From assembly GCF_013374095.1 (NCBI RefSeq), contig NZ_AP022672.1:2745501-2809500 (forward strand): a stretch of 64,000 bases of DNA. The letters run 5' to 3'. Origin of the DNA: Sphingomonas sp. HMP6. Its GTDB lineage: Bacteria > Pseudomonadota > Alphaproteobacteria > Sphingomonadales > Sphingomonadaceae. The position numbers and the translations under genes were made by a program. The notes under the pieces are model-generated. The model was not told where the DNA came from and searched no databases. It was given only the letters and a program-made list of their open reading frames with translations. Within the stretch, counting starts at the first letter, position 1. Every line of letters begins with the position of its first letter. Of this stretch, positions 14,576-32,248 are shown in pieces.

Positions 14576-14659
14576 AGCGAACTTTCGGGCGGCGCGGGCG
14601 GGGTGCGTCCGGACCAGGCATAACGCTACCCCAGCCGATACGATCCGCAAAGCCCGGCG

Positions 14660-16150
14660 TTAGGCCGTATCGACTCGCACCCGCAGCATCGCGAGCGCCG
14701 CCAGCGCCATCACGACGGCGGCGAACAGCATCGTCCAAATCGGCTCGTTCGGGAAGAAGGCCTGCATGATCGACCCCATCACGGTCGCGACCAGCAATTG
14801 CGGGATCACGACGAAGACGTTGAACAGGCCCATGTAGATGCCGAGCTTGGCTTGTGGCAGGCTGGACGCGAGGATCGCATAGGGCATGGCGAGAATCGAC
14901 GCCCAGGCGATGCCGATGCCGATCTCGCTCAATAGCAGCATCTGCGGGTCGCGGATCACCAAGAAGCTCGCATAGCCCGCCGCCCCGCACAGCAGCCCGA
15001 CGACATGCGTGAGCGCGGCACCGATCCGCTTGGCGAGGAACGGCAGCAGCGTCAGCGCGGCGATCGCGGCGACGCCGTTATAGGTGCCGAACAGCACATC
15101 GACCCAGCTCGCCCCCTCCTGATAGCGGGGTGACGCCGGATCGGTCGCGCCAAAGGCGTATTGCGCGACGATCGGGGTGGTGTTGATCCACATGATGAAC
15201 AGCGCTGACCAGCTGAAGAACTGCACGAGTGCGAGGCGCTTCATCAGATCGGGCATCCCGCCGAAATCGCCGACGATATGGCCGAGCATCGACGGCGAAG
15301 ACCCGCCGCGCGCGCGGGCAATCGCGATGATGCTGGCGATGCCGTAGCCGCCGAGCAACCCGCCGAGTAGATAGACTTCCTTCTTCAGCCCGAACGCCGC
15401 CACCGCTGCGATCACTGTGATGCCGCCCGCGATCCACCACAGGCTGCCGGTGAAGGTCCGCGCGGCGAGCAGGCGCAGCGTTTCGGTTTCCTGCTCGGCG
15501 GTACCGTCGAACGCCGCCATTTCCGCAGGCGAATACTCACGCGTCGTCAGCACCGTCCACAACACCGACAGGAACAGCGCCGCCCCGCCGAACCAGAAGG
15601 CATAGCGCACCGTATCGGGGATCACGCCGGGCGCTGCGGTATTGGCGACGCCCCAATGTTCGAGCAGCTTGGGGAAAATCGACCCGATCACCGCGCCCGC
15701 GCCGATGAAGGCGGTCTGCACCGCATAACCGACGCTATGCTGGTCCTTGCGCAACATATCGCCGACGAACGCGCGGAACGGCTCCATCGAAATGTTGAGC
15801 GACGCATCGAGCACCCACAGCATGACGGCGGCGAACAGCAGCAGGTTCGACAGCGGCATCACGAACAAGGCGAGCGTCGCCAGGATCGCGCCAGTCAGGA
15901 AATACGGTCGCCTGCGCCCCAGCCGCCCAAGCCAGGTCTTGTCCGACAGATGGCCGATGATCGGCTGCACCAGCAATCCGGTGAGCGGGGCCGCGACCCA
16001 CAAAGCGGGCAAATCGTCGAGATTGCTGCCCAGCGTCTGAAAAACGCGGCTCATGTTCGCGTTCTGCAGCGCAAAACCGATCTGAATCCCGAAAAAGCCG
16101 AACGAGATGTTCCACAGCCCGGCAAAGGACTGGCGTGGCCGTTCGTTCAC
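14660..16150 (-). CDS. SLC45/GPH-type sugar:H+ symporter (MFS)
   Basis: This is a 12-helix MFS permease of about 496 residues, similar to the alphaproteobacterial maltose/sucrose transporters of the SLC45 group. The family loop GHLSDKTWLGRLGRRRPYFL after helix 2 is intact. It would carry maltose or maltodextrins across the inner membrane for the cytoplasmic glucosidase. GTG 16150 is chosen for its GGGGA site; ATG 16219 would overlap lacI. A copy of the LacI-type operator sits about 70 bases upstream inside the 3' end of lacI. Confidence 0.87.
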   Translation of the reverse strand: MNERPRQSFAGLWNISFGFFGIQIGFALQNANMSRVFQTLGSNLDDLPALWVAAPLTGLLVQPIIGHLSDKTWLGRLGRRRPYFLTGAILATLALFVMPLSNLLLFAAVMLWVLDASLNISMEPFRAFVGDMLRKDQHSVGYAVQTAFIGAGAVIGSIFPKLLEHWGVANTAAPGVIPDTVRYAFWFGGAALFLSVLWTVLTTREYSPAEMAAFDGTAEQETETLRLLAARTFTGSLWWIAGGITVIAAVAAFGLKKEVYLLGGLLGGYGIASIIAIARARGGSSPSMLGHIVGDFGGMPDLMKRLALVQFFSWSALFIMWINTTPIVAQYAFGATDPASPRYQEGASWVDVLFGTYNGVAAIAALTLLPFLAKRIGAALTHVVGLLCGAAGYASFLVIRDPQMLLLSEIGIGIAWASILAMPYAILASSLPQAKLGIYMGLFNVFVVIPQLLVATVMGSIMQAFFPNEPIWTMLFAAVVMALAALAMLRVRVDTA

Positions 16151-16208
16151 TGATCCATCCCCTGCGTTTTTATCGCGTGTACGCGCGGTGGTGGCCGGGA
16201 ACGGCGGG

Positions 16209-17255
16209 TCAGTCGCCATGAATACGTATGCCGCTCGACGCGCGCACCACCAGCCGCGGCGGCAGGATCGCGGTGGCGGTCGGCTCGCCGCGGATCCGTG
16301 CGAGCAGCGTATCGACCAGGAATTCGCCCGCACGGCGATAATCCTGCGCGACCGTGGTGAGCGGCGGATGCGCCAGCGTGGCGGCGGGCAAATCGTCGAA
16401 CCCGATGATCTTCACATCCTCGGGCACGCGCCGCCCCGCCTCGGCCAGCGCGCGCATCGCGCCGATCGCGATCAGGTCGCTCGCCGCGAAGATCGCGTCG
16501 AAATCGCGCGCGCGCGCCAGCAATGTTACGGCGGCGGCATAGCCCGACGCTTCGGTGGTGATCGCATCGACCTGGAGTGCGGGGTCGAACAGCATCCCCG
16601 CTTCGTCGATCGCCTCGCCAAGCCCGCGATAGCGATCCTCGAATTCGGGATAATGGCTCGACGCCTCCCCCAGAAAGGCGATCCGGCGGCAGCCTTGCGC
16701 AATCAAATGCCGTCCGGCGTCGCGCCCGCCGCGCACATTGTCGCAGCCAACCGTCGCATCGGCGGCCTGGTTCGACCGTACCGATCCCCAGCGGACGAAA
16801 TGCGTGTTCTGCCCCGCAAGCAAATCGAGCCGGGCACGATATTCCTCATAATCGCCATACCCGAGCAGGATGATCCCGTCGGCCTTGCGGCTATCCTCAT
16901 AATCGACGTGCCAGTCGTTCGAGAGGTGCTGGAACGAGATCAGCAGATCGTACCCACGCAGCGCACAGGTCCGCGTGATCGACCCGAGCATGGCGAGGAA
17001 GAACGGATTGATCAGCGAATCGTCGGGCGTCGGATCTTCGAAAAACAGCAAGGCGAGCGTGTTGGAACTGCCACGCCGCAAGTTCGACGCATTCTTGTCG
17101 ACCTTGTAGTTGAGTTGCCGCGCGATCGCCTCGATCCGTAGCCGCGTGGCCGCGCTGACGGTCGGATCGCCGCGCAGCGCGCGCGACACCGTCGGCTGCG
17201 ACACGCCAGCCAGCGCCGCAATGTCGAAGGAGGTGGGTTTGTCGTTCAGCGCCAT
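16209..17255 (-). CDS. LacI-family transcriptional regulator of the maltodextrin locus
   Basis: This is a 348-residue LacI/GalR regulator. The N-terminal helix-turn-helix reads FDIAALAGVSQPTVSRALRG, with the hinge helix NASNLRRGSSNTLALLF. A periplasmic-binding-protein-like effector domain follows, with FAASDLIAIGAMRALAEAG and IIGFDDLPAA. It is divergent from the TonB receptor and upstream of the permease on the same strand. Identical ATACGTAT-core sites are found in the divergent intergenic region and before the permease, so it probably represses both arms and itself. The inducer is likely maltose, by context. Confidence 0.93.
   Translation of the reverse strand: MALNDKPTSFDIAALAGVSQPTVSRALRGDPTVSAATRLRIEAIARQLNYKVDKNASNLRRGSSNTLALLFFEDPTPDDSLINPFFLAMLGSITRTCALRGYDLLISFQHLSNDWHVDYEDSRKADGIILLGYGDYEEYRARLDLLAGQNTHFVRWGSVRSNQAADATVGCDNVRGGRDAGRHLIAQGCRRIAFLGEASSHYPEFEDRYRGLGEAIDEAGMLFDPALQVDAITTEASGYAAAVTLLARARDFDAIFAASDLIAIGAMRALAEAGRRVPEDVKIIGFDDLPAATLAHPPLTTVAQDYRRAGEFLVDTLLARIRGEPTATAILPPRLVVRASSGIRIHGD
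16219..16232. promoter_or_regulatory. Putative LacI-family operator, copy 1 (inside 3' end of lacI)
   Basis: The sequence TGAATACGTATGCC, with an 8-base palindromic core ATACGTAT, lies in the last codons of lacI and about 70 bases upstream of the permease start. The same 14 bases occur upstream of the TonB receptor. The position suggests control of the permease promoter. Confidence 0.6.
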
Positions 17256-17358: not shown

Positions 17359-17372
17359 TGAATACGTATGCC
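17359..17372. promoter_or_regulatory. Putative LacI-family operator, copy 2 (lacI / TonB receptor intergenic)
   Basis: This is an exact second copy of TGAATACGTATGCC, about 105 bases upstream of lacI and 93 bases upstream of the TonB receptor start. A further inverted repeat, CACCG-taac-CGGTG at 17300-17313, lies nearer lacI and could be another site. The 209-base gap holds no gene. Confidence 0.65.
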
Positions 17373-17464: not shown

Positions 17465-20335
17465 ATGATCGCATCGACGCGCCGTGAGGCGACGCAATTC
17501 CGCAATACCCTGTCTTTGGGCACCAGCATGAGCGCGCTGGGCGCAGCCTTGCTGCTGTTCGGCACGACGGCGGCGCACGCGCAGACGGCGCCCGCCGCCG
17601 ACGCGCCCGCGGCCGAGGAAAATGATCAGGACATCGTCGTCACCGGCTTCCGCGCTTCGCTGCAAAGCGCGGTCAACGCCAAGAAATCGCGCGATCAGGT
17701 CGTGGAATCGATTTCTGCGGAAGACATTGGCAAGCTGCCCGACGCCTCGATCGCGGAATCGATCGCGCGCTTGCCGGGCCTGACCTCGCAGCGCGTCTCG
17801 GGTCGCTCGAACGCAATCTCGATCCGCGGTTTCGCCCCCGACTTCTCGACGACCTTGCTCAACGGGCGCGAGCAGACCTCGACCGGAGACAATCGCGCGG
17901 TCGAATATGACCAATATCCCTCCGAAATCATCAGCTCGGTGCTCGTCTATAAGACGCCACAAGCCAATATCGTCGGGCAGGGCCTGTCGGGCACGGTCGA
18001 TCTCAAGACGGTCCGTCCCCTCGAATATGGCAAGCGCGCGATTTCGATCGGCGGGCGCGGCACCTATGCCGATCTCGGCAAACTCAACGCCGAATCGCAG
18101 GATATGGGCTACCGCGTCAACGGCACCTTCATCGACCAGTTCGCCAATGATACGATCGGCGTGGCGCTGTCGGCGAGCTATCTCAACGAACCGTATCAGA
18201 TTCAGGAATTCAACGCCTGGGGCTATGCCGGCGGCGGGACTGCCGCAAACCCGGTCGTGATCGGGGGTTCCAAATCCTATGCCACGTCGACCACGCTCAA
18301 GCGGCTTGGCCTGCAGGGAACGCTCGAATGGCGTCCATCGCCCAATTTCACGACGACCTTCGACGGCTTCTATTCCGATTTCAGCGACAACCAGATCAAG
18401 CGCGGGATCGAACTGCCGCTCGGTTTCGACGTCAATAACGATCCGACGCAACCCAATGCGACGAAGCTGAACGTCACCGCGAATGACGGTGTCTTCGCGA
18501 CCGCTGGGACCTTCTCCAACGTCGAGGGCGTGGTGCGTAACGACGTGTTCCAACGCAAGGCGAAGCTCTATTCGTTCGGCTGGAACGGCAAATGGACCGG
18601 CGACGATGGCTGGAACGTGATGGCCGATCTCAGCTATTCGAAAACAGACCGCAACGAATTGATCCTTGAATCGAACGCCGGCACCGCACGCGGGCAGGAT
18701 ACGGGCGCGGTCGATACGGTCGGCTTCACCAGCGGCTCGAACGGCACGGTGTTCCGCCCGACGCTGAATTACGGCGACTATAATCTGATCAAGCTGACCA
18801 GCCCGCTCGGCTGGGGCGGCAATCAGACCGGCGTGGACGGGAAACGGATCCTCAACGGTCAGGACGGCTATTATAACAACCGGATCATCAGGGACGAGCT
18901 GAAGCAGTACCGGCTCGAGATTGAGAAGGAGACCGACGGTTTCTTGAGGAGCGTCCAGTTCGGCCTGAACTATACCGATCGCTCCAAGTCGCTGACCCCA
19001 GACGAGGCGTTCCTCGGGCTTGTCGCCAATACCAACGGAACGACCGATGTAGCGGTCCCGACGCAGTTCCGGCTCCCGACGACGAGCCTGAGCTATCTCG
19101 GCCTCGGGCCGGTGATCAGCTATGATCCGGTCGCCTTGCTCAATGCCGGGGTCTATCAGCTCATCAAGAATCCGTATGGCGACGTTGTGGTGAAGGCATA
19201 CAACGTCACCGAACGGCTGATGACGAGCTACCTCCAGGCGAACATCAAGCAGGCGATCGGCGCGAACACGCTGACCGGCAATGTCGGCGTCCAGGCGGTC
19301 TTCACCGATCAGCATTCAAGCGGCGCGCAAGCGGCATTCCTCGGCACCAATCCCAACGGGTCGCCCAACATCGGCGGCATCCCCCGGCGCGAGGGCGCGA
19401 ATTACGTCGACATCCTGCCAAGTCTCAACCTGTCGTTCCGCACCGCCAACGACTTCGTGATCCGTTTCAGCGCCGCGCGCGAGACGATCCGTCCGCGTCT
19501 GGACGATATGCGCGCCTCGCTCAGCTATGGCACGACCGTCGGCGATAATGGCGGTATCACCAACCCGCTTCCGGGACGCACCTATGCCGTGGTGCGGGGC
19601 GATTCGGGCAATCCCGATCTGCGACCGTGGCGCGCCAATGCGCTCGATCTCACGTTCGAAAAGTATTTCGGCACCAAAGGCTATGTGGCGGTCCAGCTTT
19701 TCTACAAGGATTTGAAGAGCTACATCTACAACGCCGCCGTACCGTTCGATTTCACCGGTTTCCCGGTCCAGTCGGCCGGGGTGGACGGCAACGGTCTGCC
19801 GATCATCATCAACTATCAGGGCACCGTGAACGCGCCGATCAACGGCAATGGCGGCAGCTTGTACGGCGCGGAATTGGCGGCCACCTTCCCGCTGGCGACG
19901 CTGACCAGCGCGCTCGACGGGTTCGGCGTGACGGGTGGCGTGTCGTATACCAAGACCAAGATCAGCCCCACGCCGGGTGCGCCCGCCGAGGACATCCCCG
20001 GCTATTCGAAATATGTCGCCAACGGCACCGCTTACTTTGAGAAATGGGGTTTCTCGGCCCGCGCGAGTGCGCGTTATCGTTCGACCTTTATCGGCGAACT
20101 GTCGGGCTTCGGCGGCGCCCGTACGCGGCGTCGTGCGCGCGACGAGACGATCATCGATGCGCAGATCGGCTACGATTTCAGCAGCGGTTTTGCCAAGGGC
20201 CTCTCGCTGTTCGTGCAGGGCCAGAACCTGACCAATGCCCCGTTCGTGACCGCCGATCCGCGTGACGACCGCGCGGTGATCGATTACCAGACGTATGGCC
20301 GCCGCTATCTCGCGGGTGCCAGCTTCAAGTTCTGA
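17465..20335 (+). CDS. TonB-dependent receptor (TonB-Xanth-Caul type), maltodextrin locus
   Basis: This is an outer-membrane gated porin of 956 residues. A signal peptide ends TTAAHAQ at about residue 40, then the TonB box DIVVTGFRASL, the plug domain with IGKLPDASIAESIARLPGL, and a 22-strand barrel ending in the aromatic motif YLAGASFKF. It resembles the Caulobacter MalA type that imports maltodextrins. ATG 17465 has AGGGGA 8 bases upstream; no signal-like sequence precedes it. It is the first gene of a plus-strand operon running at least to 30017. No SusD partner is present. Confidence 0.93.
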   Translation: MIASTRREATQFRNTLSLGTSMSALGAALLLFGTTAAHAQTAPAADAPAAEENDQDIVVTGFRASLQSAVNAKKSRDQVVESISAEDIGKLPDASIAESIARLPGLTSQRVSGRSNAISIRGFAPDFSTTLLNGREQTSTGDNRAVEYDQYPSEIISSVLVYKTPQANIVGQGLSGTVDLKTVRPLEYGKRAISIGGRGTYADLGKLNAESQDMGYRVNGTFIDQFANDTIGVALSASYLNEPYQIQEFNAWGYAGGGTAANPVVIGGSKSYATSTTLKRLGLQGTLEWRPSPNFTTTFDGFYSDFSDNQIKRGIELPLGFDVNNDPTQPNATKLNVTANDGVFATAGTFSNVEGVVRNDVFQRKAKLYSFGWNGKWTGDDGWNVMADLSYSKTDRNELILESNAGTARGQDTGAVDTVGFTSGSNGTVFRPTLNYGDYNLIKLTSPLGWGGNQTGVDGKRILNGQDGYYNNRIIRDELKQYRLEIEKETDGFLRSVQFGLNYTDRSKSLTPDEAFLGLVANTNGTTDVAVPTQFRLPTTSLSYLGLGPVISYDPVALLNAGVYQLIKNPYGDVVVKAYNVTERLMTSYLQANIKQAIGANTLTGNVGVQAVFTDQHSSGAQAAFLGTNPNGSPNIGGIPRREGANYVDILPSLNLSFRTANDFVIRFSAARETIRPRLDDMRASLSYGTTVGDNGGITNPLPGRTYAVVRGDSGNPDLRPWRANALDLTFEKYFGTKGYVAVQLFYKDLKSYIYNAAVPFDFTGFPVQSAGVDGNGLPIIINYQGTVNAPINGNGGSLYGAELAATFPLATLTSALDGFGVTGGVSYTKTKISPTPGAPAEDIPGYSKYVANGTAYFEKWGFSARASARYRSTFIGELSGFGGARTRRRARDETIIDAQIGYDFSSGFAKGLSLFVQGQNLTNAPFVTADPRDDRAVIDYQTYGRRYLAGASFKF

Positions 20336-20407: not shown

Positions 20408-21967
20408 ATGGAACGCGGCTCAGAGACCGGCGATGCGACGGCCGCGCGATCCGCGATCCGGCGCGTCGTCATCGTCGGCGGCGGAACCGCAGGGTGGATG
20501 GCGGCTGCCGCGTTCGCACGCTTCCTGCCGGAGGGGACCAGCATCGCCTTGGTCGAATCCGATGCGATCGGCACGGTCGGTGTGGGCGAGGCGACGATCC
20601 CGCAAATCCGCCTGTTCAATCAGGGGCTCGGGATCGACGAGGATGATTTCCTCCGCGCGACGCAAGGCACCTTCAAGCTCGGCATCGAATTCGTCGGCTG
20701 GTCGGGCGCGCCGGGCGGAGTCGAGAGCCGCTACATCCACGCCTTCGGGACGATCGGGCGCGGGCTCGGGCTGGTGCCGTTCCATCAGCATTGGCTGCGG
20801 CATCGCAGCCTCGGCGGCACGCGCGGATTGTGGGATTTCTCGGCGAGCGCGCTCGCGGCGCAGCACGATCGCTTCGCGCGCGACATGGGCCGGCCCGATC
20901 TGCCGAGCGGCATCGCCTGGGCGTTCCAGTTCGATGCCGGGCTCTATGCCGCCTATCTGCGGAAATATGCCGAGGCACGCGGCGTTGTGCGGCACGAGGG
21001 CCGGGTCGTCGCGGTCGCACAGGATCGCGAACGCGGTGACATCACCGGGGTGACACTCGACGATGGGGCGGAGATCGCTGGCGATTTCTTGGTCGACTGT
21101 TCGGGGTTTCGCGGCCTCCTGATCGAACAGGCGTTGCACGCCGGCTATGACGATTGGTCGGCGTTGCTGCCGTGCGACCGGGCGCTGGCCGTGCCCTCGG
21201 CCACCGTCGGCTCGACCACGCCCTATACGCGGGCGACGGCACGCGAAGCGGGCTGGCAGTGGCGCATCCCGCTGCAGCATCGCACCGGCAACGGGCTGGT
21301 CTATTGCAGCGCGTTCCTCGACGATTCGCGCGCGGCGGACCTTCTGCTCGCCAATCTTGAGGGCGCGGCGCTGGCCGATCCGCGCCCGTTGTCCTTCACC
21401 ACCGGGCGCAGGCGCAGCGCCTGGGTGAAGAATTGCGTCGCGCTCGGGCTGGCCGCAGGATTCATGGAGCCGCTCGAATCGACCAGCATCCATTTGATCC
21501 AATCGGGCATCGCGCGGCTGTTGCAATTGTTTCCGCAGGATCATGAGAGCAGCGTGGAGGCGGCCGAATTCAACCGCCAGACCGAGCAGGAATGGCTTGC
21601 GGTGCGCGATTTCCTGGTGCTGCACTATCATGCCAACGGCCGCGACGAGCCGTTCTGGCGCGCGTGCCGCGAAGCACCGCTTCCTGACAGCCTCGCGCAC
21701 CGGATCGATCTGTTCCGCTCGACCGGCCGATTGTTCCGCGAAGGCGAGGAGCTGTTCGCCGAACCCGGCTGGCTGCAAGTGCTGATCGGGCAGGGCGTGA
21801 CGCCACGGCGGTACGATCCTTTGGCCGACGGCCTGCCCGCGGCACAGCTCGACGAATTTCTCGGCCTCGCACGTCGGCATGTCGAGCAGGTCGTCGGCAA
21901 GATGCCGACCCACGACGCTTTCATCGCGGCGCATTGCGCTGCTTCGGACAGGATGGCCGCAGGATGA
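20408..21967 (+). CDS. Flavin-dependent halogenase, PrnA/tryptophan halogenase family (copy 1)
   Basis: This is a 519-residue FAD-dependent halogenase. The FAD motif GGGTAGW is at residues 24-30, the catalytic lysine is K90 in GTFKLGIEF, WxWxIP is WQWRIP, and the glutamate motif is GFMEPLES. All known catalytic elements are therefore present. Such enzymes make HOCl or HOBr from FADH2, O2 and halide and need a flavin reductase, which is not in the locus. It lies between the TonB receptor and the amylase, overlapping the latter by 4 bases. Substrate is unknown; ATG 20408 follows AAGGG, GTG 20345 is possible. Confidence 0.9.
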   Translation: MERGSETGDATAARSAIRRVVIVGGGTAGWMAAAAFARFLPEGTSIALVESDAIGTVGVGEATIPQIRLFNQGLGIDEDDFLRATQGTFKLGIEFVGWSGAPGGVESRYIHAFGTIGRGLGLVPFHQHWLRHRSLGGTRGLWDFSASALAAQHDRFARDMGRPDLPSGIAWAFQFDAGLYAAYLRKYAEARGVVRHEGRVVAVAQDRERGDITGVTLDDGAEIAGDFLVDCSGFRGLLIEQALHAGYDDWSALLPCDRALAVPSATVGSTTPYTRATAREAGWQWRIPLQHRTGNGLVYCSAFLDDSRAADLLLANLEGAALADPRPLSFTTGRRRSAWVKNCVALGLAAGFMEPLESTSIHLIQSGIARLLQLFPQDHESSVEAAEFNRQTEQEWLAVRDFLVLHYHANGRDEPFWRACREAPLPDSLAHRIDLFRSTGRLFREGEELFAEPGWLQVLIGQGVTPRRYDPLADGLPAAQLDEFLGLARRHVEQVVGKMPTHDAFIAAHCAASDRMAAG

Positions 21968-23772
21968 TCCGCAAGATGCTGCTCGCCTCGCTCCTGGCGG
22001 TCGCCGGGATGCCCGCCGCTGCGCAGACGGCGCCCGCCTATCGCGATCGCCTGCCGCAGGACGAAGTGATCTATTTCGTGCTGCCCGACCGCTTCGCCAA
22101 TGCCGACCCGGCTAACGATCGCGGTGGGTTGACCGGCGACCGGCTTGTCACCGGCTTCGATCCGACCGCCAAGGGCTTCTATCACGGCGGCGATTTGCAG
22201 GGGCTGATCGGGCGGCTCGACTATATCCAGGGGCTCGGCGCGACCGCGCTGTGGGTCGGGCCGATCTTCAAGAACAAGCCGGTGCAGGGCGCCAAGGGCT
22301 CCGAGTCCGCGGGCTATCACGGCTATTGGATCACCGATTTCACGAGCGTCGATCCGCATCTCGGCAGCGCGGCCGATTTCAAGGCGCTGGTCGATGCGGC
22401 GCATGCACGCGGGATGAAGGTCTATATGGACATCATCGTCAACCACACCGCCGACGTGATCAAATATCGCGAATGCGTGCCCGACCAGTACTGCGTCTAT
22501 CGCAGTCTGGGAGACTATCCATATCAGCGCCGTGGCGGCGTGACCGGTGCGGCGATCAACTCAGGGTTCGCCGGGCATAATGATGGCAGTGCGGCCAATT
22601 TTGCGAAGCTGACCGATCCGACTTACGCCTTTACGCCGTACCTTCCCAAAGGCGAGGAGCGCGCGAAAACCCCGGCGTGGCTGAACGACGTCACCTTGTA
22701 CCACAATCGCGGCGATTCCACCTTTTCGGGCGAGAGTTCGACGCTCGGGGATTTCTCCGGGCTTGACGATCTGATGACCGAAAACCCGCGCGTCGTGGCC
22801 GGCATGATCGACATTTTCGGCGGCTGGATCGATCGCTTCGGGGTGGACGGTTTCCGCATCGACACCGCGCAGCACGTGAACCCCGAATTTTGGCAGGTCT
22901 TCGTGCCTGCGATGAGAGCGCGCGCGGCGGCCAAGGGTATTCCCAACTTCCACATCTTCGGCGAAATCGCGACCGGCGACATGGATCCCGCGCGGCTCGC
23001 CACCCATACCCGCGTCGACGGGCTGCCCGCGGTGCTCGACTTCGCGTTCCAGCGTGCGCTGGTCGACACCGTCGGCGGCGGCGCGGGCACCGACGAGCTG
23101 CGCCGCTTGTTCTTCGCCGATCCGCTGTATGAAGGCGGCGCTGCGGGCGCGATGCAGCTGCCGACCTTCCTCGGCAATCACGATGCCGGCCGTTTCGCGA
23201 TGTTCGTAAAGCGTGGTTTCCCCAAGGCAAGCGACGCCGAACTGCTCAGCCGTGTCATCCTCGGCCATGCGATGCTGCTCACGCTGCGCGGCGTGCCGAC
23301 GATCTATTCGGGCGACGAACAGGGCTTCGTCGGCAAGGGCGGCGACCAGGATTCGCGCGAGGACATGTTCGCGAGTCATGTGGCGAGCTATAACGACAAT
23401 CGCCTGCTCGGCACCGCGAAGACGACCGCCACCGACAGCTATGACACCGCGCATCCGCTGTACCGCGCGATCGCCACGCTCGCGAAGTTGCGCGCCGAAC
23501 TGCCCGCCCTGCGCCGCGGCAAGCAGATGCTCCGCGCCTATGGCGACAAGCCCGGCCTGTTCGCCGTGTCGCGCTTCGATCCCGATACCGGCCGCGAAGT
23601 GCTGCTCGCCTTCAACACCTCGACCGCCCCGGTCAGCGCGAAAGTGCTGGTCGAAACCCGCTCGACCGATTTCACCGCCCGCCACGGCGTGTGCGCGCCC
23701 AAGGCGACCGCCCCCGGCAGTCTTTCCGTGACCGTCCCTCCCCTCGATTATGTGATCTGTACCGCGCAATGA
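21964..23772 (+). CDS. Periplasmic GH13 alpha-amylase / cyclomaltodextrinase-like
   Basis: This is a secreted GH13 hydrolase of 602 residues with a signal peptide ending GMPAAAQ. The catalytic triad is visible: nucleophile D300 in GFRIDTAQHV, acid/base E334 in FHIFGEIATGD and D407 in FLGNHDAGRF. A C-terminal beta-sandwich follows. It would cut dextrins brought in by the TonB receptor. The ATG overlaps the halogenase stop by 4 bases, and the gene overlaps the next one the same way. Confidence 0.92.
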   Translation: MIRKMLLASLLAVAGMPAAAQTAPAYRDRLPQDEVIYFVLPDRFANADPANDRGGLTGDRLVTGFDPTAKGFYHGGDLQGLIGRLDYIQGLGATALWVGPIFKNKPVQGAKGSESAGYHGYWITDFTSVDPHLGSAADFKALVDAAHARGMKVYMDIIVNHTADVIKYRECVPDQYCVYRSLGDYPYQRRGGVTGAAINSGFAGHNDGSAANFAKLTDPTYAFTPYLPKGEERAKTPAWLNDVTLYHNRGDSTFSGESSTLGDFSGLDDLMTENPRVVAGMIDIFGGWIDRFGVDGFRIDTAQHVNPEFWQVFVPAMRARAAAKGIPNFHIFGEIATGDMDPARLATHTRVDGLPAVLDFAFQRALVDTVGGGAGTDELRRLFFADPLYEGGAAGAMQLPTFLGNHDAGRFAMFVKRGFPKASDAELLSRVILGHAMLLTLRGVPTIYSGDEQGFVGKGGDQDSREDMFASHVASYNDNRLLGTAKTTATDSYDTAHPLYRAIATLAKLRAELPALRRGKQMLRAYGDKPGLFAVSRFDPDTGREVLLAFNTSTAPVSAKVLVETRSTDFTARHGVCAPKATAPGSLSVTVPPLDYVICTAQ

Positions 23773-25409
23773 CCGCTCAGCCGCTGCCAACCCCCGAAGC
23801 CCCGCCCGAAGCGCAGTCCGCCCGCCCGTGGTGGCGCGGCGCGGCGATCTATCAAATCTATCCGCGGAGCTTCGCCGATTCGAACGGCGACGGCATTGGC
23901 GATCTCGCCGGGATCACCGCGCATCTGGAGTATGTCGCGGCGCTCGGCGTCGATGGCGTGTGGCTGTCGCCCTTCTTCGCCTCGCCGATGAAGGATTTCG
24001 GCTATGACGTGTCGGATTATCGCGCGGTCGACCCGATCTTCGGCACGCTCGCTGATTTCGATGCCTTGGTCGCGCGCGCGCACGCGCTCGGGCTGAAGAT
24101 CATCATCGACCAGGTCTATTCGCACACCTCGGACGCGCACGCCTGGTTCGCCGAGAGCCGCGCCGACCGCAGCAACCCGAAGCACGACTGGTACGTCTGG
24201 GCCGATGCCAAGCCCGACGGATCGCCGCCCAACAATTGGCAATCGGTGTTCGGTGGCCCGGCGTGGACGTGGGATGCGCGGCGCGGGCAATATTACATGC
24301 ACAATTTCCTGAGCGCGCAGCCGCAACTCAATCTGCATGCGCCCGCAGTGCAGGATGCGGTGCTCGATGTCGCGCGCTTCTGGCTCGACCGCGGCGTCGA
24401 CGGGTTCCGCATCGATGCGATCAATTTCGCGATGTGCGACCCCGAACTGCGCGATAATCCGCCCGCCCCCGCCACCAACGGCGTGCGCACGCGCTCCTTC
24501 GATTTCCAGCGCCACGTCCACAACCAGTCGCACCCCGACATCCCGCTCTTTCTCGAACGGCTGCGCGCGCTGACCGACCGCTATGACGGCTGCTTCACCG
24601 TGGCCGAAGTGGGCGGGGCCGAGGCCGAAGTGGAGATGAAGCGCTTCACCCACGGCGCGCGGCGGCTGAACAGCGCGTACGGCTTCAACTTCCTCTACGC
24701 GCCTGCGCTGACCCCTGCGCTGGTACGCGATGCAGTCGAGCAATGGCCCGATACGCCCGGCATGGGCTGGCCAAGCTGGGCGTTCGAGAATCACGATGCG
24801 CCGCGCGCGGTCTCGCGCTGGGCGAGCAGCGCAGACCGGACGGCGTTTGCGCGGCTGAAGATGCTGCTGCTGGTCGCGCTGCGCGGCAATATCTTCCTGT
24901 ATCAGGGCGAAGAGCTCGGGCTGACGCAAGTCGACATCCCGTTCGAGCGGCTGCAGGACCCCGAAGCGATCGCCAATTGGCCGCTGACGCTGAGCCGCGA
25001 CGGCGCGCGTACGCCGATGCCATGGGTGGCGGAGGCACCGCAATTGGGCTTTTCGAGCGCAGAGCCGTGGCTGCCGATCGGCGCGGATCACGCAGGGCTG
25101 GCGGTCGATCTGCAGGATGCTGCGGCGGAGTCGATGCTGGCGCTGACACGCGATCTGCTGGCGCTGCGCCGCGCGCATCCGGCGTTGCAGAGCGGCGACA
25201 TCCATGTGCTGGAGGCGGCGGATACCCTGCTCGTGTTCGAGCGGCGCGCGCCGGGGCAGAAGCTGGTGTGCGTGTTCAATCTAGGGGACGACCCGGTGAC
25301 CTGGCGTCCGACCGATCCGGGCGCGTGGCGCATCATCGCACGCGTGAACGCGATCGAAGACTGGCAGTTCGGCGGCCATGCCGCGCTGATCGCCGAAAGG
25401 GTGATGTAA
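23769..25409 (+). CDS. Cytoplasmic GH13 alpha-glucosidase (GH13_23-like)
   Basis: This is a 546-residue oligo-1,6-glucosidase/alpha-glucosidase type enzyme without a signal peptide. The calcium-like loop DSNGDGIGDL, nucleophile D216 in DGFRIDAINF, acid/base E280 in FTVAEVGG and D343 in ENHDAPRAVSRW are intact. It would release glucose from maltose and short dextrins after import by the permease at the other end of the locus. Exact linkage preference (alpha-1,4 or alpha-1,6) cannot be read from sequence. It overlaps its neighbours by 4 and 1 bases. Confidence 0.93.
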   Translation: MTAQPLPTPEAPPEAQSARPWWRGAAIYQIYPRSFADSNGDGIGDLAGITAHLEYVAALGVDGVWLSPFFASPMKDFGYDVSDYRAVDPIFGTLADFDALVARAHALGLKIIIDQVYSHTSDAHAWFAESRADRSNPKHDWYVWADAKPDGSPPNNWQSVFGGPAWTWDARRGQYYMHNFLSAQPQLNLHAPAVQDAVLDVARFWLDRGVDGFRIDAINFAMCDPELRDNPPAPATNGVRTRSFDFQRHVHNQSHPDIPLFLERLRALTDRYDGCFTVAEVGGAEAEVEMKRFTHGARRLNSAYGFNFLYAPALTPALVRDAVEQWPDTPGMGWPSWAFENHDAPRAVSRWASSADRTAFARLKMLLLVALRGNIFLYQGEELGLTQVDIPFERLQDPEAIANWPLTLSRDGARTPMPWVAEAPQLGFSSAEPWLPIGADHAGLAVDLQDAAAESMLALTRDLLALRRAHPALQSGDIHVLEAADTLLVFERRAPGQKLVCVFNLGDDPVTWRPTDPGAWRIIARVNAIEDWQFGGHAALIAERVM

Positions 25410-27511
25410 TGAAGCCGACCCATTTGCTCGCGCTCGCCGCAGCCCTCAGCGCCAGCGCCGCCGTCGCGCAGGACAAGCCTACCGTCCCCGCGCCCGTCGT
25501 GACCAACGAGACGATCAAGCCGCAAGCCGCCGCCGCGATCCCGAGCGTCACCGCCGCTTCACCCGACGGCAGCATCGTCGTCACGCTGGCGACCGATGGG
25601 GAGGGCCATGCGAGCTATGCGATCACGCGCAAGGGCGAGACGATCGTCGCACCGTCGCGATTGGGTTTCCTGTTCACCGATGCGCCCAAGCTCGACCGGC
25701 ATCTGCAGATCGCGAAGGTCACGCGCGCCGCGTCCGACACCAACTGGACCCAGCCCTGGGGTGAGTGGACCACGATCCGCGACAACCACAATGAACTGCG
25801 CGTGCATCTGCAGGAAACCAGCGCGCCCGGTCGCACGCTCGATGTGGTGTTCCGCATCCAGAATGACGGCGTCGGCTTCCGCTACGAATTCCCCGAACAG
25901 GCGGGCGGCAAGCCGGTCAACATCGCCGAGGAACTGACGCAATTCGCCTTCGCCTCGGACGCGACCGCCTGGTGGAAGCCCGCGTTCGAGTGGAACCGCG
26001 AGGAATATCTCTACAACCGCACCCCGCTGCGTGCGGTCGGCACCGCCGCCACGCCGATCACCTTGAAACTGGCGAGCGGCACGCATGTCGCGCTGCACGA
26101 GGCCGCGCTGATCGATTATTCGGGCATGTCGGTGGCCAAGGTCGGCGACAGCAACACGCTCAAAGCCGTGCTGACGCCGGGTTCGGGCGCGCCGAAAGTC
26201 ACGCGGACTGGTCCCTTCACCACACCGTGGCGCACGCTGATCATCACCGACGATGCCCCCGGCCTGTATATGAGCCACCTCGAACTCAACCTCAACGAAC
26301 CCAACAAGCTCGGTGACGTCAGCTGGGTCAAACCCGGCAAGTTCGTCGGCGTGTGGTGGAACATGATCACCGGCAAATGGAGCTGGGCAACCGGACCCAA
26401 GCACGGCGCGACGACCGCCAACGTCAAAACCTATATCGATTTCGCGAGCGCCAACCGGATTCCGGGCGTCTTGGTCGAGGGCTGGAATGTCGGGTGGGAC
26501 GGCGACTGGTTCGGCAATGGCAATGCGATGCAGTTCGACACGCCGACGCCCGATTTCAATGCCGCCGAGCTGATGCGCTATGCCAAGGCCAAGGGCGTGT
26601 ATTTGATCGGCCATAACGAAACCGGCGGATCGGCCAGCCATTACGACAGTCAGCTCGACCGTGCGTTCGGCTATGCCCGCGACCACGGCATCCCGGTGGT
26701 CAAGACGGGCTATGTCACCGATGCGGCCGAAATCGAACGCGTCGATCCCGACGGCAGCCAGCACCGCGAATGGCATGAGGGGCAGTGGATGGTGAACCAT
26801 TACCTGCGCGTCGTGACGACGGCGGCCAAATACCACGTCGCAATCGACGCGCATGAGCCGGTCAAGGATACGGGCCTGCGCCGCACCTACCCCAATTGGG
26901 TGTCGCGCGAGGGATCGCGCGGGATGGAATATAATAGCTGGCCGGGGAAGAACCCGCCCGAGCATGAGGCCAATCTGGTGTTCACGCGGATGCTGGAGGG
27001 GCCGATGGATTTCACCCCCGGCGTGCTGAGCCTCAAGGGATCGGATGACAGCGATCTGCTCTCGACCGAGGCCAAGCAATTGGCGCTCTATGTATTGCTC
27101 TATTCGCCGGTCGCGATGGCGGCGGATACGCCCGAGCAATATGCCAAGCACATGCCCGCCTTTCAGTTCATCCGCGATGTGCCGACTGACTGGTCCGACA
27201 CGCGCGTGCTAAACGGCGAAGTCGGCGATTATGCGACGATCGCGCGGCAAGATCGCAAGTCGAACGATTGGTATCTCGGTAGCGTGACCGATGAAAATGC
27301 GCGGACGCTTTCGGTCTCGCTCGATTTTCTCGATGCCGGGCGGCGTTACACCGCGCAAATCTATCGCGACGCGCCCGATGCCGACTATCGCACCGACAAG
27401 CGCCACGCGATGGTGATCGAAACGCGCCCGGTGAAGCGCGGTGACACGCTCAGCCTGCCGCTCGCGCCGGGGGGCGGCATGGCGGTGCGCTTCGTGGCGG
27501 CGAAGAAATAA
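25409..27511 (+). CDS. GH97 alpha-glucosidase (SusB-like), secreted
   Basis: This is a 700-residue GH97 enzyme with a signal peptide ending ASAAVAQ. The N-terminal beta-sandwich (about residues 45-290) is followed by a TIM barrel with GVLVEGWNVGWDGDW and DAHEPVKDTGLRRTYPNW, then REGSRGMEYNSWPG with a family-conserved glutamate, which favours the inverting SusB-type active site. The C-terminal sandwich ends GGGMAVRFV. It is expected in the periplasm. The start forms TAATG with the previous stop, and its own stop forms TAATG with the esterase gene. Confidence 0.93.
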   Translation: MKPTHLLALAAALSASAAVAQDKPTVPAPVVTNETIKPQAAAAIPSVTAASPDGSIVVTLATDGEGHASYAITRKGETIVAPSRLGFLFTDAPKLDRHLQIAKVTRAASDTNWTQPWGEWTTIRDNHNELRVHLQETSAPGRTLDVVFRIQNDGVGFRYEFPEQAGGKPVNIAEELTQFAFASDATAWWKPAFEWNREEYLYNRTPLRAVGTAATPITLKLASGTHVALHEAALIDYSGMSVAKVGDSNTLKAVLTPGSGAPKVTRTGPFTTPWRTLIITDDAPGLYMSHLELNLNEPNKLGDVSWVKPGKFVGVWWNMITGKWSWATGPKHGATTANVKTYIDFASANRIPGVLVEGWNVGWDGDWFGNGNAMQFDTPTPDFNAAELMRYAKAKGVYLIGHNETGGSASHYDSQLDRAFGYARDHGIPVVKTGYVTDAAEIERVDPDGSQHREWHEGQWMVNHYLRVVTTAAKYHVAIDAHEPVKDTGLRRTYPNWVSREGSRGMEYNSWPGKNPPEHEANLVFTRMLEGPMDFTPGVLSLKGSDDSDLLSTEAKQLALYVLLYSPVAMAADTPEQYAKHMPAFQFIRDVPTDWSDTRVLNGEVGDYATIARQDRKSNDWYLGSVTDENARTLSVSLDFLDAGRRYTAQIYRDAPDADYRTDKRHAMVIETRPVKRGDTLSLPLAPGGGMAVRFVAAKK

Positions 27512-28527
27512 TGTTCCCCCAACTTCCCACCCCGGCAAAGGCCGGGGCCCAGTTGCGCAGGTCCTGGTTACAATGCGCAGCGTCCGAAGTATCGATGCCG
27601 GGTAACTGGGCTCCGGCCTTCGCCGGGGAGGCGTTACTTTTACTGCTGCTTTTGCTCGCGTTGCTGATCCCGCTGCCCGCTGCGGCGCAAGATGCCGGCC
27701 GCTTCGTCACGATCGAGGCCGCGCCTTCGGTCAACATCACCCCCCCGCGCGTGACAATCTGGCTGCCGCCGGGCTATGATGCGGGTAGGCGGCGCTATGG
27801 CGTCATCTACATGCATGACGGGCAGAATCTGTTCGATCGCAAGCACTCGAACTTCGACAAGGTGTGGGCGGCGGACAAAGCGGTGCTACGGCTGGTCGCG
27901 GCGGGCAAGATCGCGCCGGTCATCATCGTCGGCGTCGATCAGCCGGGCGCAGCACGCTATCGCCAATATTTCCCGCAAAGGCTCTATGCCGCCGCGTCGC
28001 CCAAGCTCCAAGCCGAGATCGATCAGAGCGCCAAGGGACCGCTGACCGGCGACGCCTATCTGCGCTTCCTCGCCGACGAATTGAAACCGCTGATCGACCG
28101 GACCTATCGTACGCGACGCGATGCTGCGCATACTGCGGTGGTCGGGTCGAGCATGGGCGGATTGATGTCGTGTTACGCCTTCATCGAACAGCCCAGAGTG
28201 TTCGGGCGTGCCGGGTGTGTCTCGACGCATTGGCCGCTTACCTTCGCGCTGCAACTCGTTCCCGGGGACGAGCGACCGGCGCTGTGGAAGGCCTATCTGA
28301 CGCAGAAGCTGGGCAAACCGGCCGGGCGTAGGCTGTGGATGGATCATGGCGACAAGACGCTCGACGCCGCTTACCCGCCTTACCAGGCAGTGATCGATCA
28401 GGATGTTGCTGGCCTCGGGTGGAAGAAGGGCCGCGATTTCGAAAGCCGTGCCTATCCGGGCGCCGAGCATGAGGAAAATGCCTGGGCGGCGCGGCTCGAC
28501 GAGATTTTCGGCTGGCTGCTCCGGTGA
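27511..28527 (+). CDS. Secreted alpha/beta-hydrolase (esterase D / CE1-like) with repeat-derived N-terminus
   Basis: This alpha/beta-hydrolase-fold esterase shows GVIYMHDGQNLFD, the nucleophile motif VVGSSMGGLMS, and a late AEHEENAW histidine region. Its first 40 codons come from an intergenic inverted repeat, giving PTPAKAGAQL and NWAPAFAGE, before the hydrophobic signal segment and PLPAAAQ. Translation may start at ATG 27511 (TAATG junction) or at ATG 27595 inside the repeat, which gives a normal signal peptide. Substrate is unknown; context suggests acylated glycans. It overlaps the next halogenase gene by 4 bases. Confidence 0.85.
   Translation: MFPQLPTPAKAGAQLRRSWLQCAASEVSMPGNWAPAFAGEALLLLLLLLALLIPLPAAAQDAGRFVTIEAAPSVNITPPRVTIWLPPGYDAGRRRYGVIYMHDGQNLFDRKHSNFDKVWAADKAVLRLVAAGKIAPVIIVGVDQPGAARYRQYFPQRLYAAASPKLQAEIDQSAKGPLTGDAYLRFLADELKPLIDRTYRTRRDAAHTAVVGSSMGGLMSCYAFIEQPRVFGRAGCVSTHWPLTFALQLVPGDERPALWKAYLTQKLGKPAGRRLWMDHGDKTLDAAYPPYQAVIDQDVAGLGWKKGRDFESRAYPGAEHEENAWAARLDEIFGWLLR
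27530..27628. repeat. REP-like inverted repeat A, copy 1 (inside esterase 5' end)
   Basis: This 99-base element has 25-base terminal inverted repeats at 27530-27554 and 27604-27628 (23 of 25 match), beginning CCCCGGCAAAGGCCGG. The same element occurs at 55667-55763. Here it is read in frame as part of the esterase N-terminus. Confidence 0.85.
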
Positions 28528-30017
28528 CACTCCCGCCCGCTGGCCTGCATATCGTCATTCTCGGCGGCGGTACGGCTGGGTGGATGGCGGCGAATCTGTT
28601 CGCGCACGCTTGGCCGAGCGCGCAGATCATCGTGATCGAAAGCCCCGAAATCGGCATCATCGGCGTCGGCGAGGGATCGACCCCGCAGTTGAAGGCATTC
28701 TTCGACCGGCTCGGCATTGCCGAGGCTGACTGGATGCCGGCCTGCAATGCCACGTACAAGAATGGCATCGAGTTTTGCGGCTGGTCGGATCGCACGGGAT
28801 ACGACCGCTATTTTCACCCCTTCCCCAGCCCGCTCGATCTCCACACCGCGCCCGCCTTTTTCGATGCGACCAGGCGGCGGCGGCATGGACAGGATGTGTG
28901 GGCGCATCCCGATCGCTTTTTCCTGCCTGCGCGGCTGGCGGCGGATCGGCTGGCTCCGATCGCCGCCGAGGCGTTTCCGCTCGGGCCAGCGTACGGCTAT
29001 CATTTCGACGCGCATCTGGTCGGCGCGTTCCTGCGGACCCATGCCGCCAAGCGCGGCGTGGTGCATCTCGAACGCCGCATCGTCGAGGTCGCGGTGACGG
29101 ATGGCGCGGTCACGGCCCTCATTGCTGAAGGCGGCGAGCGGATCGCGGGCGATCTGTTCGTCGATTCGAGCGGCTTTCGATCAGTGATCCACCAGGCCGC
29201 GCTCGGCGTTCCGTTCGTGTCATTCGGCGAAAACCTTTTCAACGACAGCGCCGTCGTGATGCCGACTCCCGCCGATCCGACCGGCACCGCCTCCGCCACC
29301 CGCGCGACTGCGCTCAAGGCGGGCTGGGCGTGGGACATTCCGCTCACCAGCCGCACCGGCAATGGCTATGTCTATGCGTCGGGCTATTGCTCGAAGGATG
29401 AGGCCGAGGCCGAACTCCGTGCGCATCTCGGCGTCGGCGACGAAGGGACCGCGCGGCATCTGTCGATGAAGGTCGGGCGCGTGGCTGAAACATGGTTCGG
29501 CAACAGCCTTGCCGTTGGCCTGTCGCAGGGGTTCATCGAACCGCTCGAGGCGACCGCGCTGCATATCGTCCAGGCGACGGTCGAGGCCTTCATCCAGGCG
29601 TATGAAGCGGGCGGGTTCACGCCTGCCCATCGCGGCGCCTTCAACGACCGGATCGCGGCGCGGTACGACGGGATCCGCGATTATATCGTCTGCCATTACC
29701 GGATGAACCGGCGCGCCGACACGGCCTATTGGCGCGACAATGCCGCGAATGATCGCCTGTCCGATTCGCTGAAGGCCATCATCACCTGCTGGTTCACGTG
29801 TGGCGATCTGGCGGCGGAGGTCGCGCAGCAGGGGATTGCGGGCTATTATGCCGCGACCTCGTGGCACTGTCTGCTAGCGGGATATGGTCAATTTCCCCAG
29901 TGCGCGCCGCACCCGGCGGGGCCCGGGGCAGCCGACATGGCGGCGATCGACGATTTCCTGCGCCGTGCCGCGCTCAATTTCGCGGACCATCGCAGCGTCC
30001 TCGCCGCCTTGGGCTAG
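28524..30017 (+). CDS. Flavin-dependent halogenase, PrnA/tryptophan halogenase family (copy 2)
   Basis: This is a second, clearly divergent halogenase of 497 residues. The FAD motif GGGTAGW is at 14-20, catalytic lysine K79 in TYKNGIEFCGW, WxWxIP is WAWDIP and the glutamate motif is GFIEPLEA. The lysine position equals that of PrnA. GTG start overlaps the esterase stop by 4 bases, making it the last of a coupled gene chain. Its C-terminal region differs from copy 1, and the long substrate-cover regions are unlike, suggesting a different substrate. No flavin reductase is adjacent. Confidence 0.9.
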   Translation: MTLPPAGLHIVILGGGTAGWMAANLFAHAWPSAQIIVIESPEIGIIGVGEGSTPQLKAFFDRLGIAEADWMPACNATYKNGIEFCGWSDRTGYDRYFHPFPSPLDLHTAPAFFDATRRRRHGQDVWAHPDRFFLPARLAADRLAPIAAEAFPLGPAYGYHFDAHLVGAFLRTHAAKRGVVHLERRIVEVAVTDGAVTALIAEGGERIAGDLFVDSSGFRSVIHQAALGVPFVSFGENLFNDSAVVMPTPADPTGTASATRATALKAGWAWDIPLTSRTGNGYVYASGYCSKDEAEAELRAHLGVGDEGTARHLSMKVGRVAETWFGNSLAVGLSQGFIEPLEATALHIVQATVEAFIQAYEAGGFTPAHRGAFNDRIAARYDGIRDYIVCHYRMNRRADTAYWRDNAANDRLSDSLKAIITCWFTCGDLAAEVAQQGIAGYYAATSWHCLLAGYGQFPQCAPHPAGPGAADMAAIDDFLRRAALNFADHRSVLAALG

Positions 30018-30916: not shown

Positions 30917-32248
30917 CTACAGATATTTATCCAGCAGAGCGCGCAGATCGACCTGCGCCTTCAGCCGCGCTGCCAGCCAATAACTCCCGCCAAGCTTGCG
31001 CTGCACGAACAACGTCTCCGCCGGCGGCACGCGCCACATCGTCCGGTCCGAGGCCAGCGCAAGGCCACGTCCGCGCATCGATTTGATCCAGCTCGCATCG
31101 CCGAAATCGAACGCGCCTTCCTGCAGCAACATGCCGGCGCTGAGATCGAACAGCGCGAGCACTTCGTCGCGATGCGCCGCCGTGGTGCCGGCATCGAACA
31201 GGCCGAACGCCTCGAGCGCCTTCAGCGCCGCCGCCCGGTCGCCATCCCGCACTGCCCGCAGCATCTGGCGGTAGAGGTCGGCAATCTCCGGAGAAATCTC
31301 CCGAGTCGCGCCGAAATCGAGCAGCACGATCTTTCCCGTCGCCGCGTCGTAGCGGTAATTGGCAAGGTTTGGATCGGTCTGCATCAGCCCGAAATCAAAC
31401 AGCTCGCGCAGCACCAGATCGAGCATCCGCGCGGCGACCGCGTCGCGTTCTGCCTGGGGGCGGTCGGTCAGCGATTCGATCGGCACGCCCTCGGCATAGG
31501 ACATGGTCAGGATCGTTGGCGTTGAAAGCTCAGGCAGGAAGGCGGGAACTTGAAAATGCGGGTCGCCCGCGAGCAGATCGCCGAAGCGGGCGAGACACGC
31601 ACCTTCGCGCACATAATCGGCCTCCTCGCGCAATTGCACCTTGGCGACTTCGAGCAACGGGGCGAGGTCGAGTTCCTTCGGCACCAGCCCCGACAGGCGC
31701 AGCAAGGTCGCGACATTGTCGACATCGCTGTCGATGCTCTTCGCGACGCCGGGATATTGCACCTTGATCGCCAGCGGCCGCCCGTCGCGGGTGCGGCCGC
31801 GGTGGACCTGGCCGATCGAGGCGGCGGCGATCGGACTGGCATCGAAGGCGGAGAGCTTGCTCTTCCAATCCGCACCCCATTGTCCGGTCAGGACCGCGCT
31901 GAGCTGTCGATCGGGCATCGGTTCCGCATCGGCGCGCAAGCGGGCGAGGATTTCGCTGAGCTCGGGCGGTAGCAGCTCGCCCGAATCGAGCGACACCAAT
32001 TGCCCCAATTTCATCGCCGCCCCGCGCAGATTCGCCAGCCGATCGGTGACGCGCCCGATATTGCCGGGGGTCAGCAGCAAATCGCCCAGCACCGGGCGCT
32101 TGCCGCTGGCGAGCTGTCGCGCGCCTTCGCCGATCATGCCGCCGGCCACGCCCGCTGCGAGCCCGCCGAAGCGCGACAGCCGGGCGAGGCGACCGGTCGG
32201 GACGGCGCTTCCAGTACCGGGGCCACTGCGGGGGATCGGAGGTTTCAA
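30917..32248 (-). CDS. ABC1/AarF/UbiB family atypical kinase
   Basis: This 443-residue protein is of the ADCK/UbiB family, which supports ubiquinone or prenyl-lipid metabolism and has a protein-kinase-like fold with ATPase activity. The KxGQ motif K80-LGQL, an alanine-rich loop AAASIGQVHRG, the invariant lysine in LAIKVQYPG, and the late LLDFGATREI (DFG-like) are intact. The usual C-terminal transmembrane helices of UbiB are not obvious. The start is a TTG at 32248 and is uncertain. It stands alone between convergent and divergent neighbours. Confidence 0.87.
   Translation of the reverse strand: MKPPIPRSGPGTGSAVPTGRLARLSRFGGLAAGVAGGMIGEGARQLASGKRPVLGDLLLTPGNIGRVTDRLANLRGAAMKLGQLVSLDSGELLPPELSEILARLRADAEPMPDRQLSAVLTGQWGADWKSKLSAFDASPIAAASIGQVHRGRTRDGRPLAIKVQYPGVAKSIDSDVDNVATLLRLSGLVPKELDLAPLLEVAKVQLREEADYVREGACLARFGDLLAGDPHFQVPAFLPELSTPTILTMSYAEGVPIESLTDRPQAERDAVAARMLDLVLRELFDFGLMQTDPNLANYRYDAATGKIVLLDFGATREISPEIADLYRQMLRAVRDGDRAAALKALEAFGLFDAGTTAAHRDEVLALFDLSAGMLLQEGAFDFGDASWIKSMRGRGLALASDRTMWRVPPAETLFVQRKLGGSYWLAARLKAQVDLRALLDKYL

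Follow-up and report, generated by a model that had tools for sequence, protein, structure and literature searches.

Why should an operon for the uptake of starch sugars carry two different halogenases? The question is raised by a stretch of DNA from Sphingomonas sp. HMP6 (contig positions 2745501-2809500 in a single contig of 3.64 Mb), which was analysed over its whole length of 64,000 nucleotides and is called the window below. Open reading frames (ORFs) and a Pfam scan gave the following order on the + strand of the window: TonB-dependent receptor (TBDR), the flavin-dependent halogenase (FDH) H1, GH13a, GH13b, GH97, an esterase-like gene and a second FDH, H2. A LacI regulator and an MFS transporter lie divergently on the - strand and were assigned to the same locus by Pfam and by the neighbours in relatives. 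The presence of a TBDR, a LacI regulator, an MFS transporter and alpha-glucan hydrolases together marks the window operon as a maltodextrin (mal) locus. A preliminary description of this DNA had put the two FDHs in series with a TBDR, GH13, GH97 and an esterase; these are real members of the operon, with two GH13 genes rather than one. We consider it rather probable that this is a LacI/MalR-controlled maltodextrin uptake operon whose standard parts include two different FADH2-dependent halogenases, both cytoplasmic, and that the target of H1 is tied to the receptor.

H1 and H2 are intact. Each covers the PF04820 model almost from end to end (613 bits for H1, 405 for H2), and a profile search of the 3.64 Mb genome found PF04820 in these two genes only. 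Both carry GGGTAGW, the lysine, WxWxIP and EPLE, as the preliminary description had read them, and the GxGxxG flavin motif together with PF04820 and WxWxIP places both in the two-component FDH family. The fold was assigned by sequence at E <1e-80. The two copies do differ, as had been stated, with 37% identity over 462 aligned positions. In an alignment of 147 H1/H2 rows, the catalytic Lys and Glu were kept in 103 of 104 H1 rows and in all 43 H2 rows, where they are K79 and E342. H1 reads EPLESTS, as BrvH does. H2 reads EPLEATAL in 43/43 rows and has an SWHxLxAGYGxFP-like C-terminal segment in most of them. Judged by eye, signal peptides are present in GH13a, GH97, the esterase and the TBDR and absent from H1, H2 and GH13b, so the FDHs are expected to be cytoplasmic. 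We take H1 and H2 to be working FADH2-dependent enzymes that would be made on maltodextrin.

The conservation of the operon was determined in 246 genomes of the order, with thresholds of E<=1e-100 for H2 orthologues and 1e-150 for GH13b and H1-like genes. H2 orthologues were found in 42 genomes (own included), GH13b in 129 and H1-like genes in 143. Conservation of gene order had been set beforehand as one of the points on which the preliminary description should stand or fall. In 39 of the 42 H2 regions of the 41 other genomes, TBDR, H1, GH13a, GH13b and H2 were collinear and in the same direction; L033, L071 and L073 (L-numbers denote fetched loci) were the exceptions, and L042 and L044, which have a LacI gene between H1 and GH13a, were counted among the 39. 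GH97 was found in 37 of these ordered regions and the esterase in 13. We also fetched 80 of the 95 GH13b places without H2, which together with the H2 regions and the window made 123 loci. GH13a-GH13b was present in 101 of them. The TBDR followed by H1 stood upstream in 75 of these 101, and also in L128, which has a doubled GH13a and is outside the 75 loci used for the Mantel, palindrome and TBDR-tree work. Four loci had the TBDR without H1, and 21 had other orders, 12 of them still with a TBDR beside H1. H2 was present in 40/101. From these counts, H1 normally belongs to the operon, and H2 is often added. The orthologues are about 50-60% identical, yet order and catalytic residues are kept. 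H1 relatives were found on 91 of 72,556 plasmid records.

Two exceptions to the order concern the surroundings of H2. At L033 (9486-15413), an H2 about 70% identical to that of the window lies beside an MFS gene and near GH92, not near mal enzymes; the mal operon of the same genome (L116) shows no H2. At L073, H2 is directly behind a receptor.

The palindrome ATACGTAT was found within 500 bases upstream of the TBDR match in 73 of 75 loci (all except L046 and L124), versus 2/75 for the same length upstream of GH13a. It was also present in 4/4 checked TBDR loci without H1. The window holds two copies, against 0.10 expected. We infer that ATACGTAT is a putative LacI/MalR operator. Because of its distribution upstream of the TBDR relative to the controls, both FDHs are probably in the LacI/MalR regulon; H1 and H2, in one chain behind ATACGTAT, would be induced by maltodextrin.

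The link between H1-like genes and receptors extends beyond the mal operon. Named genomes were scanned with the H1 alignment, and 80 loci were obtained, spread over alpha-, beta- and gammaproteobacteria; these are the best 80 of at least 590 and are biased to H1-like genes. Seventy-eight were usable (L159 and L179 were dropped), with some overlap with the earlier genomes (e.g., L180 and L038). By hidden Markov model (HMM), a TBDR was directly upstream on the same strand in 58/78 loci and within three genes in 69/78; among the non-mal loci, it was directly upstream in 28/45. Pfam added four outer-membrane TonB-type barrels directly upstream and one downstream TBDR, which raised the counts to 62/78 directly upstream and 74/78 within three genes. 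Only L165, L182, L197 and L205 had no nearby receptor. Across loci, no neighbour of H1-like genes was more constant than the TBDR. The preliminary description had held that FDHs occur near TonB receptors in Xanthomonas and Brevundimonas; this is visible in loci L190, L195 and L219, while no such statement was found in the literature searched.

A similar picture was obtained from eight hand-picked genomes (our own and seven others, several of them chosen for high FDH candidate counts). After five weak FDH rows were left out, 64 FDH genes formed 37 clusters, 29 of which lay within 5 kb of a TBDR match. The fraction of a genome within 5 kb of a TBDR was at most 0.0235. Of the eight clusters beyond 5 kb, two were mal-operon H2 genes about 8 kb off, five were at least 78 kb away and one had no TBDR match on its contig.

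We then compared the divergence of the genes with one another. The partial Mantel correlation of TBDR and H1, with GH13a, GH13b and LacI removed, was 0.245 (72 of 75 loci, LacI being required), and 0/500 permutations were as high. FDH linkage was also mapped on receptor trees. The first held 124 receptors: 74 mal receptors (of the 75 loci), 24 other FDH-linked receptors, 6 mal receptors without a neighbouring FDH and 20 others of our own genome (20 of 41 used). Linkage required 3 changes on this tree, compared with a shuffled mean of 24. A wider tree of 147 receptors also took in 14 that stand in other orders and 8 of a different type, and linkage required 6 changes versus 25 when shuffled; one of its "unlinked" rows (L113_5) duplicates the ORF of a linked row. 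The H1-less receptors of L078/L131, L090 and L112 lay far from the mal-type linked receptors, and those of L125/L085 lay inside the linked group. The three receptor-divergent mal lineages without H1 keep their alpha-glucan enzymes. It looks as if in L078/L131, L090 and L112 the receptor had been exchanged and H1 lost along with the old one.

Several observations weigh against so close a tie. H1 also had partial correlations with GH13b (0.22; 3/500 permutations) and LacI (0.178; 2/500), and TBDR and GH13a had one of 0.168 (0/500). The coupling of TBDR and H1 is not exclusive, because H1 follows GH13b and LacI nearly as closely. FDHs still adjoin receptors whose divergence is as great as in L145-L152, so receptor divergence alone is no predictor of H1 loss. 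H1 is missing beside the closely linked-type receptors of L125 and L085 and beside the L090 receptor, and is therefore dispensable. H2 occurs in just 42 genomes, compared with 129 for GH13b. The FDH link is not confined to one receptor type, since FDHs also lie beside quite different receptors (L257-L264). In L257-L262, three to four FDH genes surround a single large receptor, with receptor ORFs of about 1090-1150 aa. Five of these six loci hold a more divergent FDH, with about 130-190 bits to the H1 model, and four of the six hold Cupin_8.

Phylogeny separated the two enzymes. The FDH tree is a quick IQ-TREE result of 68 rows, in which ten references were entered as printed pieces, PrnA and RebH were left out and one row (N_L187_4) has a very long branch. 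H1 lay in a large clade with BrvH, Xcc4156, 9luq and other receptor-linked FDHs, and not in any sampled tryptophan (Trp) halogenase branch. H2 formed a single clade (16/16, support 100) apart from the two Trp-halogenase branches sampled, as a third one next to them; the three together made one larger group with a support of 87, which leaves that grouping open. A comparison with the BrvH/Xcc halogenases had been proposed for both copies, and it brings only H1 into that clade. The nearest PDB entries were 6y1w (522 bits), 9luq and 6frl (457 bits) for H1, and 5hy5 and 5lv9, of the Trp-halogenase group, for H2. The PYYHG-type C-terminal segment has a role in binding. In the alignments, this segment of the PyrH/BorH/Th-Hal branch was absent in H1 and H2, and LooH lacks it as well. 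Of 7998 candidates scored in a database search, 6839 were H2 relatives at E<=1e-60. Identity was 64-94% among the top 120, of which those with an organism are mostly Sphingomonas; their public names were only labels such as tryptophan 6- or 7-halogenase or other generic flavoenzyme terms. On sequence grounds, H2 is a separate clade with its own signature (EPLEATAL, SWHxLxAGYGxFP).

Known systems resemble parts of this operon. H1 shares clade and motifs with BrvH and Xcc4156 (PDB 6frl, 6y1w) and differs from them in its place in a LacI-type mal operon. BrvH has a second FDH gene of its own adjacent to it, 42.7% identical (PMC5945002), which is similar to the pair of H1 and H2. The Pfam family, FAD fold, catalytic Lys/Glu and WxWxIP are common to H1, H2 and the Trp halogenases PyrH, BorH, Th-Hal, PrnA and RebH; H2 differs from these by EATA instead of ESTG and by SWHxLxAGYG in its C-terminal segment. 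The Xanthomonas (Xcc) mal CUT locus (XCC2469) and the Caulobacter malA locus likewise have a TonB receptor, alpha-glucosidases, a sugar transporter and a repressor, and the receptor gene is maltose-induced (PMC1790865). The word "halogenase" occurs 0 times in the main text of that paper as searched, whereas the window operon has two FDHs.

In the searched text of the BrvH (2018) and Xcc4156 (2020) papers (PMC5945002, PMC7336383) and of a genome survey of FDHs (PMC8269204), there is no mention of TonB. "Halogenase" is absent from the searched text of papers on sphingomonad TonB transport (PMC7142613) and Shewanella sugar pathways (PMC2996990). No literature joining FDHs with TonB or carbohydrate loci was found, although most subscription papers lay outside the search, so this is no proof of absence. 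In the text available, the BrvH paper calls the native substrate unknown and considers indole an unlikely natural substrate, with a site open to larger substrates (PMC5945002); the native substrates of Xcc4156 also remain unknown according to its paper (PMC7336383). A bacterial operon for starch-sugar uptake has two different halogenase-like flavin enzymes among its regular members. H1 has a fixed place in a probable sugar regulon, where an operator is predicted and the outer-membrane receptor is its constant companion. This association offers a concrete place to seek the natural substrates of BrvH/Xcc-type halogenases and would turn an open question into an experiment.

The reading that we favour, a maltodextrin operon whose H1 acts on something tied to the receptor, can be described as follows. 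Maltodextrin would relieve the LacI protein at ATACGTAT, and the receptor and both FDHs would be produced together. A general cellular reductase would supply reduced flavin. Hypohalous acid (HOX), probably derived from bromide by analogy with BrvH, would pass over the catalytic lysine to an indole-type group. The presence of this group would depend on the receptor, either as a small aromatic compound imported with the sugar or as a side chain of a peptide or protein. H2 may carry out similar chemistry on a second target. A small indole compound, a peptide and the receptor itself are the candidates for the substrate, whose identity is the part of this scheme that we are least sure of.

The preliminary description had reported no flavin reductase at the locus, and this holds for the PF01613 family: no match lies there, and the one match in the genome, in a search limited to PF01613, is about 276 kb away. 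Elsewhere, an H1-like FDH has a PF01613 flavin reductase within three genes at L182 and L205, and L194 has an FMN reductase near its FDH. L182 also has a Cupin_8; L182 and L205 are possibly complete two-component sets.

It is possible, if unlikely, that the FDHs make a halogenated small molecule, such as a bromo-indole signal or antimicrobial, which would be released during polysaccharide feeding, and that the link to the receptor is shared induction only. BrvH brominates free indole in vitro at a low rate (PMC5945002), and co-regulation with sugar uptake is likely. FDH copies are also numerous: seven of the eight hand-picked genomes have 6 to 12 matches each, some few of which are fragments. 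The neighbours were examined in 45 non-mal loci, where 93 of 177 neighbours were scanned and the 25 commonest of 86 families were considered. The commonest were LacI (9), Cupin_8 (6), MFS (6), GH30 (4), HATPase_c (4), glucokinase (3), Na/H exchanger (3) and His_kinase (3). The six MFS proteins could be exporters of such a product. However, no indole-making or other biosynthetic family was among these 25, and no Trp-pathway gene was among the neighbours whose families were examined. Shared induction also leaves unexplained why H1 is absent from mal operons with distant receptors.

We believe it quite unlikely that H1 and H2 are no longer halogenases in vivo and act as flavin monooxygenases on a receptor-linked substrate. 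The EATA of H2 in all 43 rows, where the Trp halogenases compared have ESTG, fits this alternative. So does the recurrence of Cupin_8 proteins beside TBDR-linked FDHs: they were present in at least six of the eight clusters (of 37) that were fetched and scanned for part of their genes (L258, L260, L261, L262, L263 and L264), and most of them have a weaker JmjC match. JmjC-related Cupin_8 proteins are protein hydroxylases in other organisms. The loss of halogenation is opposed by the catalytic Lys and Glu, which are retained almost without exception in both enzymes, and by the H1 clade itself, which holds enzymes reported to halogenate indoles (PMC5945002, PMC7336383).

The preliminary description had proposed that a glycoside enters through the receptor and is halogenated on an aromatic aglycone or group, which now seems very improbable. 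The FDHs do share an operon with the receptor and the glucosidases, and the operon includes an esterase. The esterase is optional, as the 13 of 39 ordered regions show, and the aglycones would need to enter the cytoplasm. Loci with an H1-like FDH and a receptor also contain GH30, GH3, glucokinase, ROK kinase, aldose epimerase or an EDD-type dehydratase, and the fetched FDH clusters have a sugar transporter, ROK kinase, aldose epimerase or GH3 as neighbours. Since FDH-receptor loci spread over several sugars, an aromatic glycoside as the common substrate is disfavoured; H2 also occurring by GH92 and the three receptor-divergent mal lineages without H1 point the same way.

We give equally little credence to the boldest reading, in which receptor-linked FDHs would be receptor-maturation enzymes that halogenate a Trp of the receptor or of a partner peptide in the cytoplasm before export, with the Cupin_8/JmjC-type proteins of sister loci as partner modifiers. 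Trp 474 (numbered with the window ORF counted from 17393) was present in 98/98 mal-like or H1-neighbouring receptors in a first alignment, where the 23 invariant columns of 980 hold no other Trp, and in 5/26 unlinked receptors, three of them from mal loci without H1. When 14 further FDH-linked receptors were added in a second alignment, it was present in 111/112. The H1-less mal receptors of L078, L131 and L112 lack it, and those of L090, L125 and L085 keep it. Against this reading, a Trp is aligned there in 6/8 of the FDH-linked receptors of the other type by one alignment and in 0/8 by another, and the remaining pattern could come from common descent of the mal-like receptors; these two points are why we hold it so low. 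The mean Trp content was 10.5 in FDH-linked versus 5.7 in unlinked receptors, which may be no more than a trait of sugar receptors.

It is hardly credible that the FDH genes ride along as neutral passengers or were fixed through linkage: H2 is patchy (42/246) and H1 is sometimes missing, but catalytic residues and order are kept at about 50-60% identity, and receptors remain the neighbours of H1-like genes in alpha-, beta- and gammaproteobacteria.

Table 1. Features of the mal locus in the window (window coordinates).
Feature	Position	Strand	Basis and remarks
MFS sugar transporter of mal locus	14660..16333	-	PF07690; adjoins LacI in most fetched relatives
LacI-family regulator, MalR-like (putative name)	16209..17255	-	PF00356/PF13377; 56-75% identical LacI genes adjoin the operon in relatives
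Second ATACGTAT copy	16222..16229		near MFS start / LacI 3' end
ATACGTAT palindrome, candidate LacI/MalR operator	17362..17369		upstream of TBDR
TBDR, TIGR01782 type	17465..20335	+	PF00593, PF07715, TIGR01782; ORF opens 17393, start 17465 preferred
H1, FDH of BrvH/Xcc4156 clade	20408..21967	+	PF04820 613 bits; nearest PDB 6y1w, 9luq, 6frl; tree
GH13a, alpha-amylase-type	21964..23772	+	PF00128; signal peptide by eye
GH13b, alpha-glucosidase-like	23769..25409	+	PF00128 + PF11941; no signal peptide by eye
GH97	25409..27511	+	PF10566, PF14508, PF14509; signal peptide by eye
Putative esterase ORF	27511..28527	+	PF00756; true start probably 3' of the repeat
Dispersed palindromic repeat across 5' end of esterase ORF	~27527..27631		91 BLAST matches in genome, self included
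H2, second FDH, separate clade	28524..30017	+	PF04820 405 bits; EPLEATAL 43/43

The start of the TBDR is more likely the ATG at 17465, which sits behind the purine-rich GGGGAGAG. A gap of 72 nt separates the TBDR stop (20335) from the ATG of H1 (20408). From H1 to H2, the preliminary description had counted overlaps of 1-4 bases, and the junctions do share 4, 4, 1, 1 and 4 bases: ATGA at 21964-21967 (H1/GH13a), ATGA at 23769-23772 (GH13a/GH13b), TAATG at 25409 (GH13b/GH97), TAATG at 27511 (GH97/esterase) and GTGA at 28524-28527 (esterase/H2). The start of the esterase had been over-read, however. Its ORF opens in the dispersed repeat, so the overlap of 1 base with GH97 is probably not at the real start.

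Other genes were considered as partners and set aside. SapC and Cupin_8 are not necessary partners, as our own genome has 0 Cupin_8 and one SapC, and the 18 kb surrounding this SapC showed no match to the models of the mal-type TBDR, H1 or H2. Next to the MFS gene lie an FAD monooxygenase (11707-13137) and a type III polyketide synthase (13502-14650), which were considered as a source of an aromatic substrate. They gave 0 tblastn matches (1e-5) in the 202 loci L033-L234, where by a rough count just 46 of the 81 stretches with an outermost MFS match extend 1.2 kb past it. Because no match was found in the fetched loci, they were not counted as parts of the system.

L052 and L074 are two copies from one genome: the same mal operon stands at both ends of contig 1 in G190, probably an unclosed circular assembly. 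Downstream of H2 in the window (30917-32248) lies an ABC1/UbiB-type kinase-like gene. A similar gene precedes the H1-like FDH in L207, which could be chance.

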